DNA from: a virus
Length of the DNA stretch: 43,003 nt
IMG/VR virus record: IMGVR_UViG_3300020020_000083
Location: 1-43,003 of that record
Reading direction: 5' to 3' (one strand)
Shown: one piece after another, positions 2,843 to 41,648 of the stretch
Layout of the letters: each line of letters starts with the position of its first letter
Position numbering within the stretch: the stretch's first letter is position 1
Notes under the pieces: model-generated
Told to the model about the DNA's origin: nothing
Databases searched by the model: none
What the model saw: only the letters and a program-made list of their open reading frames with translations
Made by a program: the position numbers and the translations under genes

Positions 2843-2912
2843 AACGGAAAGCCCCCGCGCTGTTCGCAGCAGCCGGGGGAATGGCGCCCCAAACCTGTAT
2901 AGGAGGTTCAGA
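2843..2912 (+). ncRNA. Conserved structured 5' leader of HNH gene 1
   Basis: Hairpin P1: CCCCCG (2852-2857) pairs with CGGGGG (2874-2879), C2858 is bulged, and GCTG (2859-2862) pairs with CAGC (2870-2873). Hairpin P2: AACCT (2892-2896) pairs with AGGTT (2904-2908) around the 7-nt loop GTATAGG, which holds the first half of the AGGAGG ribosome binding site. The same two hairpins occur in the other three leaders with compensating base changes. A cis-acting role in controlling HNH translation is inferred. Confidence 0.65.
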
Positions 2913-3416
2913 ATGCCCAACCGTTATACCGGACCTTTGCCCCTCGCGCAACGCTTCTGGTCGAAAGTGGATAAATCGGGCGACTGCTGGATCTGGACCG
3001 CTAGTTACGGCAGCGTTGGCTACGGGCAATTTGGCATTGCAGGCAAACTCCACGGCGCACATCGGGTAGCCTACGAGTTGGTGCATGGACCTATCCCCGA
3101 AGGGTTGCGTGTGCTTCACCGTTGCGACAATCGCGCCTGTGTTCGCCCCGATCATCTCTTCCTTGGCACCCAAGCCGATAACATGGCAGACATGCACAGC
3201 AAGGGGCGTGGGTATAGCTACTTTCGCCAATACCCTGAGCGCGTGCTGCGTGGCGAACAGCAGCACGCCGCGAAGTTGACCGATGATGTTGTTCGCAAGA
3301 TTCGTCGACTTCATGCCGATGGCCTCAACTACCCCGAACTTGCTGCCCGATTCGGCGTGTGCAAACAGTCCATTTGCAACATCGTGCGTCGTCACACATG
3401 GCGACACGTCGCCTAA
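2913..3416 (+). CDS. HNH homing-type endonuclease 1
   Basis: A 167-aa stand-alone nuclease. Residues 14-100 form an HNH_3-like domain: RFWSKVDKSGDCWIW, then GHAHR-type strands, then HRCDNRACVRPDHLFLG with His69, Cys71, Asp72, Asn73, Cys76 and His81. Residues 122-167 look like a helix-turn-helix DNA-binding tail (ELAARFGVCKQSICNIV) ending WRHVA. ATG at 2913 follows AGGAGG at 2901; the frame is open further upstream but the leader makes that start unlikely. It runs against the late genes, and its stop overlaps the stop of the tail gene at 3413. Such enzymes usually spread themselves and their flanks into related phages. Confidence 0.88.
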   Translation: MPNRYTGPLPLAQRFWSKVDKSGDCWIWTASYGSVGYGQFGIAGKLHGAHRVAYELVHGPIPEGLRVLHRCDNRACVRPDHLFLGTQADNMADMHSKGRGYSYFRQYPERVLRGEQQHAAKLTDDVVRKIRRLHADGLNYPELAARFGVCKQSICNIVRRHTWRHVA

Positions 3417-25283: not shown

Positions 25284-25338
25284 GTCACCACCCGCCCCCA
25301 CCGTGACGAATCGTCAACTGGTCCGTAGCACATACAAG

Positions 25339-25399
25339 CCGACTCCTCTCATACAGGGGTCGGTCAGCCGTCTGCGGTGTTCTAAGCGCCGCAGGCGGC
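25339..25399 (-). terminator. Paired hairpins between tail and lysis blocks
   Basis: Two adjacent hairpins lie in the 123-base gap. One pairs 25339-25347 with 25355-25363 (9 bp, one G-T), loop 7 nt. The other pairs 25367-25377 with 25389-25399 (10 of 11). No U run follows on either strand. They could stop or slow transcription between the tail genes and the lysis genes. Confidence 0.5.
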
Positions 25400-25406
25400 G
25401 ACTGCC

Positions 25407-25775
25407 TCAGTCGTTCAACTCCTGCCACTTATCCCGCGCCACCCGCACAAACGCCTTGAACACGGCGTCCCGCTGCGCGTTGGTGGCGCTGCCGTTCGCC
25501 GCCGCCATGAAGGCCTTGATGGCCGCGAGGTCGGTCTGGTATTGCGTGCGCGCCGCCTCCTTCGCCGCCTCGATGGCGGCCGGGTCGTGCGCGTCGATGA
25601 TGGCCTGCACCGCCTCGGGGTCGGTGTCGTCGGGCACCTCGATGACGAGGCGATCCGCGTTGTCGGGGTCGTCCTTGTCGCCGCCGATGTAGGTCGGGTG
25701 GATGCCCGCCGCGATCAGCTCGTCGTGCAGGGCGTTGAGGTCATGGGCCACCGTGTACTCCAGCCGTGTCGTCAT
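25407..25775 (-). CDS. Hypothetical late protein
   Basis: A 122-aa protein starting MTTRLEYTVAHDLNALHDELIAAG, with an alpha/beta N-terminal half (VIEVPDDTDPEAVQAIIDAH) and a helical end (RDAVFKAFVRVARDKWQELN). Proteins of this look occur next to receptor-binding proteins in many phages. TGATG overlap with the gene before it. Function is unknown. Confidence 0.6.
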   Translation of the reverse strand: MTTRLEYTVAHDLNALHDELIAAGIHPTYIGGDKDDPDNADRLVIEVPDDTDPEAVQAIIDAHDPAAIEAAKEAARTQYQTDLAAIKAFMAAANGSATNAQRDAVFKAFVRVARDKWQELND

Positions 25776-35379: not shown

Positions 35380-35452
35380 GGGGGCTGTAGAGTAACCGGC
35401 AGTTCGCCCGCTTTCGGGGTGGGAAGTGTGGGTTCGACTCCCACGAGTCCCC
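35380..35452 (+). tRNA. tRNA-Arg-like gene, anticodon TCG
   Basis: A cloverleaf fits well. The acceptor GGGGCTG (35381-35387) faces GAGTCCC (35445-35451) with a G-G mismatch at 7-66; G35380 can pair with C35452. U8-A9, the D stem GAGT/GTTC and loop AACCGGCA carry A14, GG18-19 and A21. The anticodon stem is CCCGC/GTGGG with loop TTTCGGG (anticodon TCG, 35414-35416). The T stem is GTGGG/CCCAC with loop TTCGACT. CCA is not encoded. It would read CGA, and by wobble other CGN. It runs against the late genes. The mismatch and C at position 73 make charging uncertain. Confidence 0.68.
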
Positions 35453-35464
35453 TCGCCATCACCC

Positions 35465-36583
35465 TCACGCCGCCCTCCGCGCCCGCATGAAGGCCCATTC
35501 GTGAATGATTCGCGCGATGTATTCGCGCTGCTCGTCGCTCACCCACCAACCATTAGGGATGCTCACTTGCCGCGCGTCGAAGGCGTCCACACCGGGCAGC
35601 GGGTCGCTGGTACTCACCTTCTTGAAGGCGTCGTGGGCATCATTGCGCCGGTGTACCTGGCTGGTGGCGATGCCGCGCTCCCCGAGGTACGCGGAGAAGC
35701 TGTCGCGGTCGTCCACGCACAGCGTCATCAGCCAGTAGGCGCACGCCGGGTCGTAGGGCGGCACGTCGATACCGGGGAGGTCGGCCAACCAGCGGCAGTA
35801 GTACTCCGCGTTGGCGCGACCACGGTCCACCGCCGCCGCCAGGCCGGGGAGGTTGGCGAGGCCGATGGCCGCCGCGATGTCGTTCAATTGGTACTTGTAG
35901 CCAATCTCCTGGATGTTCTGCGCGCAGCGGAAATCCGCGCTGCTCTCGCGGTCGAGGCCATACCAGCGGAGCAACTTCGCGCGCTGGTATTGGCTCGGTG
36001 GGGTGATGAGCGCGCCACCGTCGCCCATCGTCAGATGCTTGATGGCCTGGAAGGAGTAGCAGACGTAATCGCCTTCGTTGCCGCCGTAGGGGCCGTGTGC
36101 CGCATCCTCGATGATGGCAGGAATGCGCCCGCCACCTTGGGCAACCTCAACGAGCATTCGCATCTTGCCGTATTCGCAATTCCGCCCGCCCCAGTTGACC
36201 GCGATGATCGCCTTCGTCCGCTCTGTGACCTTCTCGGCCACGCTCAGCGGGTCGATGTTCCCGGTCAGCGGGTCAACGTCAGCCCAGACGATGCGCGCAC
36301 CACGCAGCGCGGGCGGGCTATTGGTCGCCGTGCAGGTGATGGGCGTGGTGATGACCTCATCCCCTGGCCCCACGCCGATGAGATGCAGCGCGAGGTCGAT
36401 GGCGCTGGTGCAGGAGTTGAGCAATAGCGGCGGTTCGGGTGCGCCGATGAGTTCGCCAAACTGGCGCTCGAACTCCGCGCACTTCGGACCTTGGCCGATG
36501 TACCCTGATGACAGCACCTCGTTGACGAGGTAGCCCGCGCCTTCGTCCATGCGAACTTGAAATAGCTTTATCTCGTGACTCAT
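35465..36583 (-). CDS. DegT/DnrJ/EryC1/StrS-type sugar aminotransferase
   Basis: A 372-aa PLP enzyme of the type that places an amino group on a keto sugar nucleotide. The N terminus has SSGYIGQGPKCAEFERQFGELIG. Asp160 in the IIEDAAHGPYG motif and Lys182 in SFQAIKHLTMGDGG bind PLP. LNDIAAAIGLANLP is the usual dimer segment. ATG at 36583 uses GGGGAGGGG, which belongs to the HNH cassette 2 boundary. It sits next to glycosyltransferases and an acetyltransferase, so it should supply an amino sugar. The exact sugar is unknown. Confidence 0.9.
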   Translation of the reverse strand: MSHEIKLFQVRMDEGAGYLVNEVLSSGYIGQGPKCAEFERQFGELIGAPEPPLLLNSCTSAIDLALHLIGVGPGDEVITTPITCTATNSPPALRGARIVWADVDPLTGNIDPLSVAEKVTERTKAIIAVNWGGRNCEYGKMRMLVEVAQGGGRIPAIIEDAAHGPYGGNEGDYVCYSFQAIKHLTMGDGGALITPPSQYQRAKLLRWYGLDRESSADFRCAQNIQEIGYKYQLNDIAAAIGLANLPGLAAAVDRGRANAEYYCRWLADLPGIDVPPYDPACAYWLMTLCVDDRDSFSAYLGERGIATSQVHRRNDAHDAFKKVSTSDPLPGVDAFDARQVSIPNGWWVSDEQREYIARIIHEWAFMRARRAA

Positions 36584-36597
36584 TTAGCCCCTCCCCG

Positions 36598-36606
36598 TGG
36601 TATAAT
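36598..36606 (+). promoter_or_regulatory. Extended -10 promoter of HNH cassette 2
   Basis: TG-G-TATAAT. On the minus strand the bases just beside it read GGGGAGGGGCTAAATG, the ribosome binding site and start of the aminotransferase gene. Confidence 0.75.
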
Positions 36607-36612
36607 TTGGGG

Positions 36613-36682
36613 AGAGGAAAGCCGGAGCGCTGCTACTAACAGCCCCCGGCGTGACGCCCCAAAGCCTGTCAAGGAGGCTCAG
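36613..36682 (+). ncRNA. Conserved structured 5' leader of HNH gene 2
   Basis: P1: GCCGG (36621-36625) with CCGGC (36646-36650), and GCTG (36629-36632) with CAGC (36640-36643), loop CTACTAA. P2: AGCCT (36663-36667) with AGGCT (36675-36679), 7-nt loop GTCAAGG. Compared with leader 1, P2 changes AACCT/AGGTT to AGCCT/AGGCT, and P1 changes its outer stem, with both arms altered together. Confidence 0.65.
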
Positions 36683-37210
36683 ATGACGCACCCCAACTAT
36701 ACCACCCCAACTACTCCTGAGAATGTCGAAGATCGCTTCTGGTCGAAGGTTGACCGCAGCGGTGATTGTTGGCTGTATGTGCCGGGACCAAGCACGCGCT
36801 ATGGCATTTTTTGCCCCGGCCATCAAGGCAAGGTGAGCGCGCACCGCTTCTCCTACGAACTGGCCTATGGCCCCATTCCCCTTGGAATGCTGGTCTGCCA
36901 CCGCTGTGATGTGAAGCGTTGCGTTCGTCCTGATCACCTGTTTCTCGGCACTTCGGCGGACAATATCCATGACATGCACGCGAAGGGGCGTGGTCAGCGC
37001 GGAGATAAGCATTCCGCGCGCCTGCGTCCTGAGACTCGCCCACGGGGAAGCGCTCACGGTCGCGCCCGATTGACTGAGCGCGACGTGACGGAAATCCGCG
37101 CGGCTCTCGCCTTGGGCACCCGTGGCACCGTGTTGGCACGTCGCTTCTGTGTCACGGTGTCCACAATTAGCCGCATCAACAAGGGCCATATTTGGCGTCA
37201 CGTCGCATAG
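36683..37210 (+). CDS. HNH homing-type endonuclease 2
   Basis: A 175-aa protein starting MTHPNYTTPTTPENVEDRFW. The HNH_3-like core has RFWSKVDRSGDCWLY, SAHRFSYELAYGPIP and CHRCDVKRCVRPDHLFLG. The central Asn of the usual CDNxxC is replaced by Val here (CDVKRC), which may affect activity. The C-terminal part ELAARF-like (TVLARRFCVTVSTISRINKGHIWRHVA) is an HTH. AAGGAGG precedes the ATG. It runs against the late genes between the GNAT gene and the aminotransferase. Confidence 0.87.
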   Translation: MTHPNYTTPTTPENVEDRFWSKVDRSGDCWLYVPGPSTRYGIFCPGHQGKVSAHRFSYELAYGPIPLGMLVCHRCDVKRCVRPDHLFLGTSADNIHDMHAKGRGQRGDKHSARLRPETRPRGSAHGRARLTERDVTEIRAALALGTRGTVLARRFCVTVSTISRINKGHIWRHVA

Positions 37211-38164: not shown

Positions 38165-38788
38165 TCAACTCGGGCGCGCGATGGCGATAAGTCGATCCAC
38201 CCACACCGGCCCCACCCCCACCGCAGCCCACAGCCGCAGCGTGGACTCGATGAAGTCCCAGTCCCCCTCGTACCGCTCCGACCATTGCCCGAGCAGGCTG
38301 GGGAGGTTCGGCGTCACGATGCAATGCCCGCCGATGAGTCCTTGCCCCAGCAGCCCCGGCGCAAGCCAGTACGTCGGCCCGTGGTAGGAGCGGAACCGGA
38401 ACAGCATCGGCGTGGGGCGCGGCAACTGCGCTGCCGTATCGCGAATCGCTCCGAACGCACCCGCCGCGAACACGTCGTCGTCGTCGTTGAAGGTGATGTA
38501 CTCGCCCCGCGCCTTGCTCATCGCGTGGTTTATCTGCGCGTGGCCGTAGTCGTGATGACCGGGTGTGTGGGGCACGAAGCGCACGCACGCGCCCTCGGGT
38601 GCCTCCTGCCCCAGCCTGCCGCACAGTTCGCGCACGTCGTCCAGCGGCGAATCGGTGGTGTCGGCCGCGACCAGGATTTCGTCGCCCTCGCAGAGCTGGT
38701 GAAGCGCGCTCAGGATGGAGCGGCGCAGGAGCGACAGGCGGTCGATGTCTGCGGCACAGGTCGGGATGATGGCGCTTATGCTAGGCAC
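38165..38788 (-). CDS. Family 2 glycosyltransferase (GT-A)
   Basis: A 207-aa protein with the GT-A N terminus PSISAIIPTCAADIDRLSLLRRSILSALHQ, DEILVAADTTDSP, and the metal-binding FNDDDDVFAAGAF. The rest is short, so it is a minimal enzyme. GTG at 38788 uses the GGGGACGG ribosome binding site in the HNH cassette 3 boundary; the longer frame upstream covers that cassette's leader. It adds to the sugar block. Confidence 0.8.
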   Translation of the reverse strand: MPSISAIIPTCAADIDRLSLLRRSILSALHQLCEGDEILVAADTTDSPLDDVRELCGRLGQEAPEGACVRFVPHTPGHHDYGHAQINHAMSKARGEYITFNDDDDVFAAGAFGAIRDTAAQLPRPTPMLFRFRSYHGPTYWLAPGLLGQGLIGGHCIVTPNLPSLLGQWSERYEGDWDFIESTLRLWAAVGVGPVWVDRLIAIARPS

Positions 38789-38818: not shown

Positions 38819-38882
38819 ACAGAGAATCCCCGCGCTGCCTGGTACGCAGCCGGGGAGTGGCACCAGAACGCTGGAGGTTCCA
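38819..38882 (+). ncRNA. Conserved structured 5' leader of HNH gene 3
   Basis: P1: TCCCCG (38827-38832) with CGGGGA (38851-38856), bulged C38833, GCTG (38834-38837) with CAGC (38847-38850), 9-nt loop. P2: GAAC (38866-38869) with GTTC (38877-38880), 7-nt loop GCTGGAG carrying the ribosome binding site. The T-A swap at the base of P1 and the changed P2 stem keep pairing. Confidence 0.65.
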
Positions 38883-39455
38883 ATGCCCCGCAATTATCGC
38901 AAACATCCGGCAAAATGCGAACGCTGCGACGCGGACTTCTTGCGCGTCTCGGGACAGAAGACCCGCTACTGTTCGCACGATTGCGCCAACAAGGCGCGGA
39001 GCATAGGCTTTGCCGAGCGATTCTGGTCGAAGGTAGACAAAACCGGCGATTGCTGGCTGTGGACTGGTGGATGCACCAGCTATGGGTATGGTGCTTTCTC
39101 CGTCAGCACAGGAATCGCCAAACTGGCGCACCGTGTCGCTTATGCCTTGTGCATCGCCCCGCCCCCCGATGACCTTATGGTTTGCCACACTTGCGACAAC
39201 CCACCGTGCGTGAATCCGGCGCATCTCTTCCTGGGCACGCGCGGCGATAACAATCGTGACCGCGCCGCAAAGGGACGCACGCAACGAGGCGAGGCCCATA
39301 CCTCGGCCAAATTCACCGATGAGACGGTAAAGGCGATTCGCGCCCGCTATGCTCAGGGCGGAATCACTCAGGCGGCTATGGCGCGAGAGTACGGTGTCTC
39401 GCTCCAAACCATTAGGTGTATTGTCACGAATCGATCGTGGCGTCATCTCGTTTAG
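38883..39455 (+). CDS. HNH homing-type endonuclease 3 with extra zinc finger
   Basis: A 190-aa protein. It has an extra N-terminal zinc finger (CERCDADFLRVSGQKTRYCSHDC), then the HNH_3-like core RFWSKVDKTGDCWLW, AHRVAYALC, VCHTCDNPPCVNPAHLFLG, and an HTH tail (AAMAREYGVSLQTIRCIVTNRSWRHLV). The zinc finger is the main difference from the other copies, and may change DNA binding. AGGTTCCA precedes the ATG. It lies between the tail terminator and the family 2 glycosyltransferase genes. Confidence 0.88.
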   Translation: MPRNYRKHPAKCERCDADFLRVSGQKTRYCSHDCANKARSIGFAERFWSKVDKTGDCWLWTGGCTSYGYGAFSVSTGIAKLAHRVAYALCIAPPPDDLMVCHTCDNPPCVNPAHLFLGTRGDNNRDRAAKGRTQRGEAHTSAKFTDETVKAIRARYAQGGITQAAMAREYGVSLQTIRCIVTNRSWRHLV

Positions 39456-39461
39456 CCCCGG

Positions 39462-39854
39462 CTAAGAAAATATCTCCACCTCGAACCCTGCCGTCAGCAC
39501 GCTCTTCCCGCCCATCTCGCGCGTGCTGTAACTCGTCATTGCAATCACCTGCACCGAGTGCAGCCCGTCGCCCGCGATCGGCTCTTCCAGCGCGGCGACG
39601 ATGGTGCTCGGGGCGAGGAAGTAGTCGAGCGCCGCCTGCGCCTGCCCCAAGTCCCCCAGCAGCACCCCCACCGTCACGCCGATGGTGTAGGTCAACTCGC
39701 CGGGAAAGGTCGCGTGGTAGTTGATGCGAAGCGGCAGCGTCCACGCAGCGGGGAGGTGCGGCACACCCGGCTCGATGGCGTAGGCGGTCAGCCCCCGCAC
39801 CGTCGCCAGCCGCTCCTTGAGCGCGGTTCGCACCTGCGTCAATGTCGCCGCCAT
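39462..39854 (-). CDS. Tail terminator/completion-type protein
   Basis: A 130-aa protein: TLTQVRTALKERLATVRGLTAYAIEPGVPHLPAAWTLPLRINYHATF, then GELTYTIGVTVGVLLGDLGQAQAALDYFL and a C-terminal VIAMTSYSTREMGGKSVLTAGFEVEIFS. This is the DUF3168/tail-terminator-like layout seen just before the tail tube gene. Here the sugar block stands between. ATG at 39854 uses the GGGGAGGGCGGG site in the HNH 4 boundary. Confidence 0.72.
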   Translation of the reverse strand: MAATLTQVRTALKERLATVRGLTAYAIEPGVPHLPAAWTLPLRINYHATFPGELTYTIGVTVGVLLGDLGQAQAALDYFLAPSTIVAALEEPIAGDGLHSVQVIAMTSYSTREMGGKSVLTAGFEVEIFS

Positions 39855-39870
39855 TAGCCCGCCCTCCCCG

Positions 39871-39879
39871 TGGTATAAT
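39871..39879 (+). promoter_or_regulatory. Extended -10 promoter of HNH cassette 4
   Basis: TG-G-TATAAT. The minus strand beside it reads GGGGAGGGCGGGCTAATG, the ribosome binding site and start of the tail terminator gene. Confidence 0.75.
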
Positions 39880-39885
39880 TGGGGT

Positions 39886-40054
39886 GGGAGCGATGGCGTG
39901 GTAAACCATGCTGACGAAACGGAACGGTCGCGTCGAGCCCTCTTCCGTCCTCGGGGATTGAGTCCCCGTTGAGTGGGTCCGCTCGCTCCCCAACATAAAG
40001 CCCCCGCGCTGCGCTAACAGCCGGGGGAGTGGCACAACGACTCAGGAGGTCGTC
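39886..40054 (+). ncRNA. Extended structured leader of HNH gene 4
   Basis: The 3' half is as in the other leaders: P1 CCCCCG (40001-40006) with CGGGGG (40022-40027), bulged C40007, GCTG with CAGC; P2 ACGAC (40037-40041) with GTCGT (40049-40053), 7-nt loop TCAGGAG. Upstream is an extra about 105-nt part: stem GGGAGCGA (39886-39893) with TCGCTCCC (39983-39990) around three hairpins, 39896-39911 (TAAA loop), 39919-39948 (ACGGAA/TTCCGT) and 39952-39968 (CGGGGA/TCCCCG). It looks like a four-way junction RNA. Confidence 0.6.
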
Positions 40055-40564
40055 ATGCACCCTCAGTATACCCCAGAACAGATTGCGCGCTTTTGGTCGA
40101 AGGTGGATAAGTCCGGCGACTGCTGGATTTGGATCGCCGGCCGGATTCAGACTGGCTATGGTTCGTTCTATGCGAACGGGCGCAGCCACCGTGCCAACCG
40201 CGTGGCCTACGAGATTGCCACCGGCCCCATCCCCGAGGGGATGTTCGTCTGCCACCGATGCGACAATCCATCCTGTGTTCGACCTGATCATCTCTGGCTT
40301 GGTTCCGCTGCCGAAAACTCCGCTGACATGGTGGCGAAGGGGCGCGCTGCAAGTGGCGATCAAAGCCCGGTGCGCCTGCATCCAGAGAGTCGCCCGCGTG
40401 GCGAGAAGCATCATGCCGCGAAGGTGACAGCGGAAACCGTAAAGGCAATCCGCGCCCGCTACGTGCAGGGTGGCGTCACACAGATGGCCTTGGCTGCGCT
40501 GTTCAGCCTTGACCAGACCACCATTTCGGACATTATTCGCCGCAGGAGTTGGCGTCACCTTTAG
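40055..40564 (+). CDS. HNH homing-type endonuclease 4
   Basis: A 169-aa protein starting MHPQYTPEQIARFW. The core has RFWSKVDKSGDCWIW, RANRVAYEIATGPIPEGM and VCHRCDNPSCVRPDHLWLG with the full HNH_3 residue set. The HTH tail (MALAALFSLDQTTISDIIRRRSWRHL) ends the protein. The C-terminal DETVKAIRARYxQGGxTQ block is nearly the same as in HNH 3, so these two are close relatives. Its stop overlaps the gp10-like gene's stop. AGGAGG precedes the ATG. Confidence 0.88.
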   Translation: MHPQYTPEQIARFWSKVDKSGDCWIWIAGRIQTGYGSFYANGRSHRANRVAYEIATGPIPEGMFVCHRCDNPSCVRPDHLWLGSAAENSADMVAKGRAASGDQSPVRLHPESRPRGEKHHAAKVTAETVKAIRARYVQGGVTQMALAALFSLDQTTISDIIRRRSWRHL

Positions 40565-41019
40565 CCTCCAGCCATACGGGCGACAACACGCGCTCCGACC
40601 TTGACAAAGAGTGCAGTCACCCGGCCCACGTTGGATTCAAAGGCCGGTTTCATGAATGGGCGCTTCCGCGTACCCCGGCGTCCGATACTGCGAGCCAAAA
40701 CGTACGGGTTTACGCCGTGGCGGGCAGCCCACCCGGCTACTGCGGAGACTGGGGGTGGCTTTCCTGCACTTCGGCCCATTTCTACAAATAATCCGTACCC
40801 CGCCGATGGGCCGATACGTGAGGTCAGACCGCTGATGTTGTGCGTGATGGAGCCCGCGAGCCTGCCCGTATCCTTCGGGGCCAGCCCTCGCGCCGCGCCC
40901 TCGATGAGCAGCGAACCCGCCACTAGCGCAACCTTTACCTCGCTCTCCAGCGTGGCCGGTGCCGCCGCCGCGCCCGCCGCCAGTTTCTCGATGCCCTCAA
41001 TCTTGATGCTGATTTCCAT
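40561..41019 (-). CDS. HK97 gp10-like head-tail protein
   Basis: A 152-aa protein starting MEISIKIEGIEKL. The SLLIEGAARGLAPKDTGRLAGSITHNI, YGLFVEMGRSAGKPP and RPFMKPAFESN elements are typical of the HK97-gp10/tail-component family at the head-tail joint. The ATG at 41019 forms TAATG with the connector gene. The longer frame to 41187 is a shadow of the connector gene. Confidence 0.82.
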   Translation of the reverse strand: MEISIKIEGIEKLAAGAAAAPATLESEVKVALVAGSLLIEGAARGLAPKDTGRLAGSITHNISGLTSRIGPSAGYGLFVEMGRSAGKPPPVSAVAGWAARHGVNPYVLARSIGRRGTRKRPFMKPAFESNVGRVTALFVKVGARVVARMAGG

Positions 41020-41648
41020 TAGTACACCGCCGCGCCGACGCGCCCCATCGCCCGGTATGGCTTGAGCAGCAATTCCACGTCGCTGTCGGCCTTGGTGATG
41101 CGGGTAAAGGTGGTCAGGTCGATGCCACCCACAATCCCCAGCGGCGCCCCGCGCCGCGACCACAGCCGCGCCGCTTGCAGCAGGCACGCCTCGATGACGG
41201 GAGACGGTGCCTCGCCGTTCACCACGTAGCCCCAGTCGCCAATCACGCGCACCCGGTAGCCGGGAGAGAACGCCTTCGATGACCGGGGCGCGATGGTTAT
41301 CTGGCTGTAGATGCCGCTGTCGGGCCAGGACTGCACCGGCATGAGCCAGTAGTCCGTGTTGGCGGTGAGCGTCGTCCCGTAGGTCAGGTCGCCGTCATCG
41401 TCCACGGTCACGCTGGTGACGGTGCGGATGTCGGGCTGGAGGTTGAGGGAGTCGTAGCAGGAGGCGACAAAATACTTTGTGGCTGCCGTTTCGGCGCGGA
41501 AGGTGCGCCCGGTGTACTGCTCAATTTGGAGGGTTGCGGCGTCGAGGCACCGCTGCAAAAGCACAGTATCCTCGGCGGTGAAGTTCGCCACGCCGTCCGC
41601 ACTGCTGGACAGGTGGAACTTGAGTAGGGTCAAGTCCGCGTAGGACAT
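41019..41648 (-). CDS. Head-tail connector (gp6-like)
   Basis: A 209-aa protein. The N-terminal helical part (DLTLLKFHLSSSADGVANFTAEDTVLLQRCLDAATLQIEQYTGR) and the strand part (DIRTVTSVTVDDDG, TDYWLMPVQSWPDSGIYSQITIAP, YRVRVIGDWGY), then helix VIEACLLQAARLWSRRGAPLG, match gp6/gp15-type adaptor rings. It follows the capsid gene in standard order, after a strong hairpin. Start ATG at 41648. Confidence 0.83.
   Translation of the reverse strand: MSYADLTLLKFHLSSSADGVANFTAEDTVLLQRCLDAATLQIEQYTGRTFRAETAATKYFVASCYDSLNLQPDIRTVTSVTVDDDGDLTYGTTLTANTDYWLMPVQSWPDSGIYSQITIAPRSSKAFSPGYRVRVIGDWGYVVNGEAPSPVIEACLLQAARLWSRRGAPLGIVGGIDLTTFTRITKADSDVELLLKPYRAMGRVGAAVY

Follow-up and report, generated by a model that had tools for sequence, protein, structure and literature searches.

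The leader of HNH4, one of four plus-strand HNH genes in the window (the whole 43,003-nt stretch of viral DNA analysed here), harbors a one-off insert, termed element X, which is predicted to form a self-folding junction at the 5' end of the transcript. Its most likely effect, if any, would be a shielding of the 5' end and a slower decay of the HNH4 mRNA, a reading to which we assign a probability of roughly 0.4 and for which we infer the RNA start, the folding in the cell and the effect on stability. The coordinates of all features are compiled in Table 1.

Table 1. Features of the HNH4 leader and neighboring genes (positions in the window)
Feature	Position	Strand	Characteristics
Glycosyltransferase	38165–38779	-	Neighbor of HNH genes
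Tail terminator	39462–39854	-	Neighbor of HNH genes
Extended -10 promoter TGGTATAAT of the HNH4 cassette	39871–39879	+	Motif common to the four HNH genes
Element X	39885–39990	+	Insert between promoter and P1; RNA start predicted at ~39886, foot of closing stem
Closing stem, 5' arm GGGAGCGA	39886–39893	+	Inverted-repeat match, pair probabilities
Hairpin H1, GGCGTGG-TAAA-CCATGCT	39895–39912	+	Pair probabilities mostly 0.98–1.0
Hairpin H2, GACG..AC-GGAACG-GT..CGTC	39913–39934	+	Pair probabilities 0.91–0.93
Hairpin H3 core, CGGGGAT-TGA-GTCCCCG	39952–39968	+	Pair probabilities 0.84–1.0
Closing stem, 3' arm TCGCTCCC	39983–39990	+	Inverted-repeat match, pair probabilities
P1 hairpin with bulged C	40001–40027	+	Common to HNH1–3 and many other phage leaders
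P2 hairpin	40037–40053	+	Predicted folds; overlaps RBS AGGAGG (40044–40049)
HNH4	40055–40564	+	169-aa free-standing HNH endonuclease; Pfam HNH_3 9.3e-14; phrog_826 2.2e-30
Neck1-like	40561–41019	-	Neighbor of HNH genes
Head-tail adaptor	41019–41648	-	Neighbor of HNH genes

HNH cassettes and borders of element X

Besides HNH4, whose product revealed an HTH-like C-terminus based on weaker HTH profile matches, the window carries HNH genes at ~2913–3416, 36683–37210, and 38883–39455. Among the neighboring minus-strand genes looked at, three encode head-tail connector or tail proteins and one a glycosyltransferase. The left ends of three cassettes (2811–2836, 36580–36606, and 39852–39879) seem to provide the divergent minus-strand gene with a ribosome-binding site (RBS; CCTCCCC on the other strand), and the stop codon TAG of HNH4 overlaps the TAA of the upstream minus-strand gene (40561–40564).

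All four HNH genes are preceded by the promoter motif CCCCRTGSTATAATTDGGG (four matches vs. 0.03 expected in the window), an extended -10 element of the TGnTATAAT type with TGn in 4/4, while no -35 hexamer was found at these promoters. A search for the motif in IMG/VR resulted in three matches, all unrelated and AT-rich, and no combination of promoter and P1 was detected in GTDB genomes. In HNH1–3, the -10 element is followed by 14–15 nt, hairpin P1, the RBS, and the start codon, and the HNH4 leader 3' of X displays the same pattern. Element X (c. 106 nt, starting with T and ending with C) lies between the extended -10 promoter of HNH4 and P1, and its flanks align with the HNH1 leader, where TATAATTAGGG is joined directly to CAACGGAAAG, vs. 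TATAATTGGGG and CAACATAAAG on either side of X in HNH4. Relative to the leaders of HNH1–3, it is thus a clean insert present in HNH4 alone among the four HNH leaders of the window.

P1-type leaders gathered by a pattern and a bulged-helix scan included 54 with an open reading frame, 23 of which have a -10-like hexamer at most 40 nt from P1. In these 23, the distance between hexamer and P1 is 9–21 nt vs. 121 nt in HNH4, the only leader among the 54 whose sole -10-like hexamer is distant. Thus, P1 normally lies near the 5' end of the RNA, and X represents a unique displacement and a discrete insertion of the HNH4 copy only. The extra stretch of about 105 nt between promoter and P1, described in the first-pass annotation as restricted to one copy, accordingly stood out as unique both among the four HNH leaders and among the 24 leaders with promoter and P1. 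Our best reading is that X is a one-off leader extension, an orphan and predicted 5'-terminal structured domain, which would act at most in cis.

Predicted fold and searches for related sequences

The two arms of the closing stem form an exact 8-bp inverted repeat that occurs only once in the window at this spacing and can be extended into the flanks to 14 nt at 86%. A perfect end-joining stem of at least 8 bp was obtained in 23 of 20,000 shuffles and in 30 of 20,000 genomic windows of the same length, so that inverted ends of this kind at the spacing of X are rare (about 1 in 800). The stem, already noted before our analysis, is exact, and it is predicted to enclose the three hairpins H1–H3. 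Six of its eight pairs reached probabilities of 0.96–1.0 and the two innermost 0.73 and 0.61, while most pairs of H1–H3 attained values of at least 0.9; in the minimum free energy (MFE) structure, an elongated H3 (GAGC/GCTC) competes with the last two pairs of the closing stem. Closing-pair probabilities were nearly equal for X alone and for X within the whole leader. Element X thus probably folds into a closed cloverleaf-like shape with the closing stem around three hairpins; since no homologue offers covariation, the four-way junction is a prediction only.

Minimum-energy folding against shuffled controls, as suggested by the first-pass annotation, gave an MFE of -50.4 kcal/mol for X compared to a shuffle mean of -40.4 (sd 3.8; z -2.64), with 4 of 200 shuffles as good. 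Of 429 plus-strand windows from this GC-rich phage, 11 reached the same z (~2.6%; a rough figure based on 20 shuffles each) and 26 the same energy. The fold is thus real, i.e., better than shuffled sequence, but not outstanding among windows of the phage, so that the notion of a structured element stood, though in a weaker form than claimed. The minus strand of X also folds (z -2.05), as expected of an inverted-repeat insert. Elsewhere in the window, two neighboring strong hairpins were detected at 25301–25410 (plus strand, z c. -5), and a strong intergenic hairpin between two minus-strand genes at 896–1011 (z c. -6 against shuffles).

No second copy of X was detected in the window. Rfam revealed no family for X, neither at the gathering threshold nor at E<=5 (39800–40100), and blastn against phage and plasmid records resulted in chance-level short matches only. 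Patterns of H1 and of the junction revealed no copy in IMG/VR or GTDB genomes, and a covariance model (R1), proposed earlier as a way to find copies in other phages, matched X alone in 82 and 100 sources (~1.4 Mb of related loci) and in 25 whole virus records; the pattern scans require exact matches and R1 was built on one sequence, so that a diverged homologue could escape both. The best other match of the model (L103, E 0.035) is devoid of most of H1 and of H3 and was regarded as chance. Three close relatives based on the major capsid protein (L201, L203, and L204; 67–83% identity) lack any HNH gene at the position of HNH4 and thus cannot provide a second X; in L201, the two minus-strand genes flanking this site abut directly.

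Possible role of element X and competing explanations

Since the -10 element ends at 39879 and transcription usually starts 6–8 nt further on, the RNA start is expected at 39885–39887, at the foot of the closing stem or one to two bases from it; the predicted start at ~39886, deduced from this spacing, is the first base of that stem. In the proposed model, a single insertion placed the c. 106 nt of X in the short spacer that separates the promoter from the conserved P1–P2 leader in one HNH cassette. Transcription from the extended -10 promoter would then yield an RNA starting at or near the foot of the closing stem, in which X would replace P1 as the 5'-terminal structure of the HNH4 mRNA, fold autonomously into a closed junction with three hairpins, and shield the 5' end in cis, slowing down decay, while the SD-overlapping hairpin P2 would retain control of translation, as in the remaining HNH copies and in other phage homing endonucleases (PMC2988022). 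In bacteria, a paired 5' end renders mRNAs resistant to attack by RppH and RNase E-type enzymes (PMC3997798 and papers cited there), and RppH prefers single-stranded 5' ends (PMC3997798).

Shielding is favored by the edges of the insert, which coincide with the perfect 8-bp inverted repeat. Moreover, X is predicted not to interact with P1, P2, or the RBS, so that the likeliest effect, if any, would be one in cis on the message. On the other hand, P1 alone already lies near the 5' end in other copies and extra protection by X is thus not obviously needed, while many 110-nt windows of the phage fold equally well. Since no homologue was found, selection on X is not apparent either, and X may be neutral.

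Neutral debris, i.e., a GC-rich insertion that folds by virtue of its composition, has no function, and owes its inverted ends to luck or to a trace of the insertion, is in fact nearly as likely as 5'-end protection, though tentative in itself. It would agree with the lack of homologues in phage and plasmid records, virus records, relatives, and the IMG/VR and GTDB patterns, and with the 2.6% of windows reaching z -2.64. Inverted ends placed exactly at the insertion borders are rare, however (23/20,000), and the three hairpins were predicted with high fold probabilities, both of which argue against debris.

The first-pass annotation had compared the ends of X to those of an inserted mobile structured element. 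A mobile element of the non-autonomous type (MITE-like or a palindromic repeat) that came to lie behind the HNH4 promoter would likewise be a short non-coding insert with inverted ends, and the inverted 8-bp repeat at the termini of X (14 nt at 86% once the flanks are included) as well as the clean insertion relative to HNH1–3 fit such an origin. In contrast to these repeats, X is present once in the window, and the patterns tried brought up neither relatives nor further copies from phages, plasmids, IMG/VR, or GTDB genomes; with regard to MITE-like features, the terminal inverted repeats were found, but multiple or related copies were not. Its flanks (GGGG and CAAC) show no target-site duplication, and there is no exact empty HNH4 leader for comparison. 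Thus, the inverted-repeat ends stood, while a second copy, target-site duplication, or homologue did not turn up, and we regard a mobile element as unlikely.

The likeness to a riboswitch drawn in the first-pass annotation fared worse. Control of HNH4 by a regulatory RNA that senses a ligand or binds a protein (riboswitch-like aptamer) would suit the position in the 5' leader and the predicted junction with three arms, but Rfam revealed no known riboswitch class and no family at E<=5. Furthermore, no terminator-like site was detected at X, removing X from the prediction leaves the pairing of the SD (AGGAGG) and AUG unaltered, and the duplex that X is predicted to form with the leader further downstream is weak and no better than with shuffled X. 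A coupled expression platform (terminator or SD switch) was thus not predicted as far as local pairing is concerned, as opposed to long-range or tertiary switches, and a riboswitch with a local platform is not indicated. Since X is, in addition, a lone copy ahead of a selfish gene, we consider such regulation very improbable. Similarly improbable is that X belongs to a class of functional RNA not described so far (sensor or ribozyme), which one homing-endonuclease cassette would have recruited for upstream control on top of the widespread P1–P2 leader; hammerhead and HDV-like ribozyme cores were not seen in X by eye.

With respect to coding capacity, a 17-codon ORF read inside X was dismissed, as it has no RBS, and an antisense ORF spanning X (39857–40558) gave no family match.

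An assembly artefact in the metagenomic contig is highly improbable as well. The window harbors a direct terminal repeat (positions 1–120 and the last 90 bases; circular or permuted genome) and, ahead of it at the contig start, an inverted copy of about 28 bases that is probably an assembly artefact and lends this explanation some color, but X is internal to the contig, is neither a copy nor an inversion of other window DNA, and is flanked on both sides by the continuing HNH leader pattern. Finally, a degraded tRNA or tRNA-like structure, also suggested by the first-pass annotation based on the shape, i.e., an acceptor-like closed stem with three arms, is most unlikely, since no Rfam match at E<=5 (39800–40100) was obtained, ARAGORN was silent there and reported a tRNA-Arg at 35380 as the only tRNA, and no T-arm consensus was seen in X by eye.

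The P1–P2 leader and comparison with known systems

The P1–P2 leader is a more general finding than X. It occurs four times in the window (2851–2940, 36621–36713, 38826–38912, and 40000–40084) and in the loci L005, L018, L034, L046, L067, and L083 as well as about 40 more, and P1 was found in at least 119 IMG/VR stretches, mostly before HNH genes and in some cases before others. P1 consists of CCCCG-C-GCTG, a loop, and CAGC-CGGGG. Downstream of it come TGGC or TGAC, in many cases a stretch that can form a hairpin around the SD (mean z -0.84 over 54), and ATG, with a near-invariant TA about 10–13 nt into the reading frame. Among 45 leaders, 6 of 10 P1 pairs revealed compensatory changes on both sides, though these counts lean to the helix, since the set was partly gathered by a pattern requiring it. 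The RBS lies inside or beside hairpin P2 in HNH1, HNH2, and HNH4, and the P2 pairing is preserved despite sequence differences in HNH1 and HNH2. Rfam assigned no family to the four window copies at gathering score, and no paper describing this leader was found in the literature searched; it seems to be a structured leader of phage HNH genes that has so far escaped cataloguing.

Further observations were made in other loci. Based on reading of N-termini only, the leader also stands before genes without apparent HNH character, namely those of a serine-recombinase-like protein (L086) and of primase/polymerase-like proteins (L130 and L178). In eight loci of other phages (L097, L117, L125, L139, L156, L163, L174, and L199), the P1 sequence runs into GTTTC or GTTTTG tails, and no HNH-type start follows, an arrangement reminiscent of a terminator or end hairpin. 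In the HNH leader of L010 (~2830–2985), an upstream GCTTAGAGTAG complements CTACTCTAAGC in the P1-like loop by eye, a possible pseudoknot or switch.

By itself, X is one orphan leader extension. It indicates that, in a widespread phage leader, a large structured insert can be accommodated in the short spacer between promoter and P1, and it offers a natural test of whether P1 must occupy the 5' end of the RNA, while the P1–P2 leader merits a separate study.

5'-terminal stem-loops, the subject of Belasco-group papers listed among the references of PMC3997798, are an established class of mRNA stabilisers. Like those of the ompA and papA type, X is predicted to be stable, to lie at or near the RNA 5' end, and to precede an independent RBS, so that at best it may work like such a stabilising structure; whereas the ompA/papA-type structures are simple hairpins, X would form a multi-arm junction of c. 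105 nt. Hairpins sequestering the RBS have been described for the phage homing endonucleases T4 I-TevI, segB, and Aeh1 mobE (PMC2988022). The HNH4 leader is likewise structured ahead of a homing endonuclease and its P2 overlaps the SD in a similar manner, but X lies c. 50–160 nt upstream of the SD and is predicted not to sequester it. The hairpin upstream of seg43(25) in Aeromonas phage 25 is, like the predicted fold of X, very stable and located before the RBS of a homing endonuclease without hiding it; there, the RBS is found directly at the base of the stem (PMC2988022), whereas X is separated from the RBS by P1 and P2.
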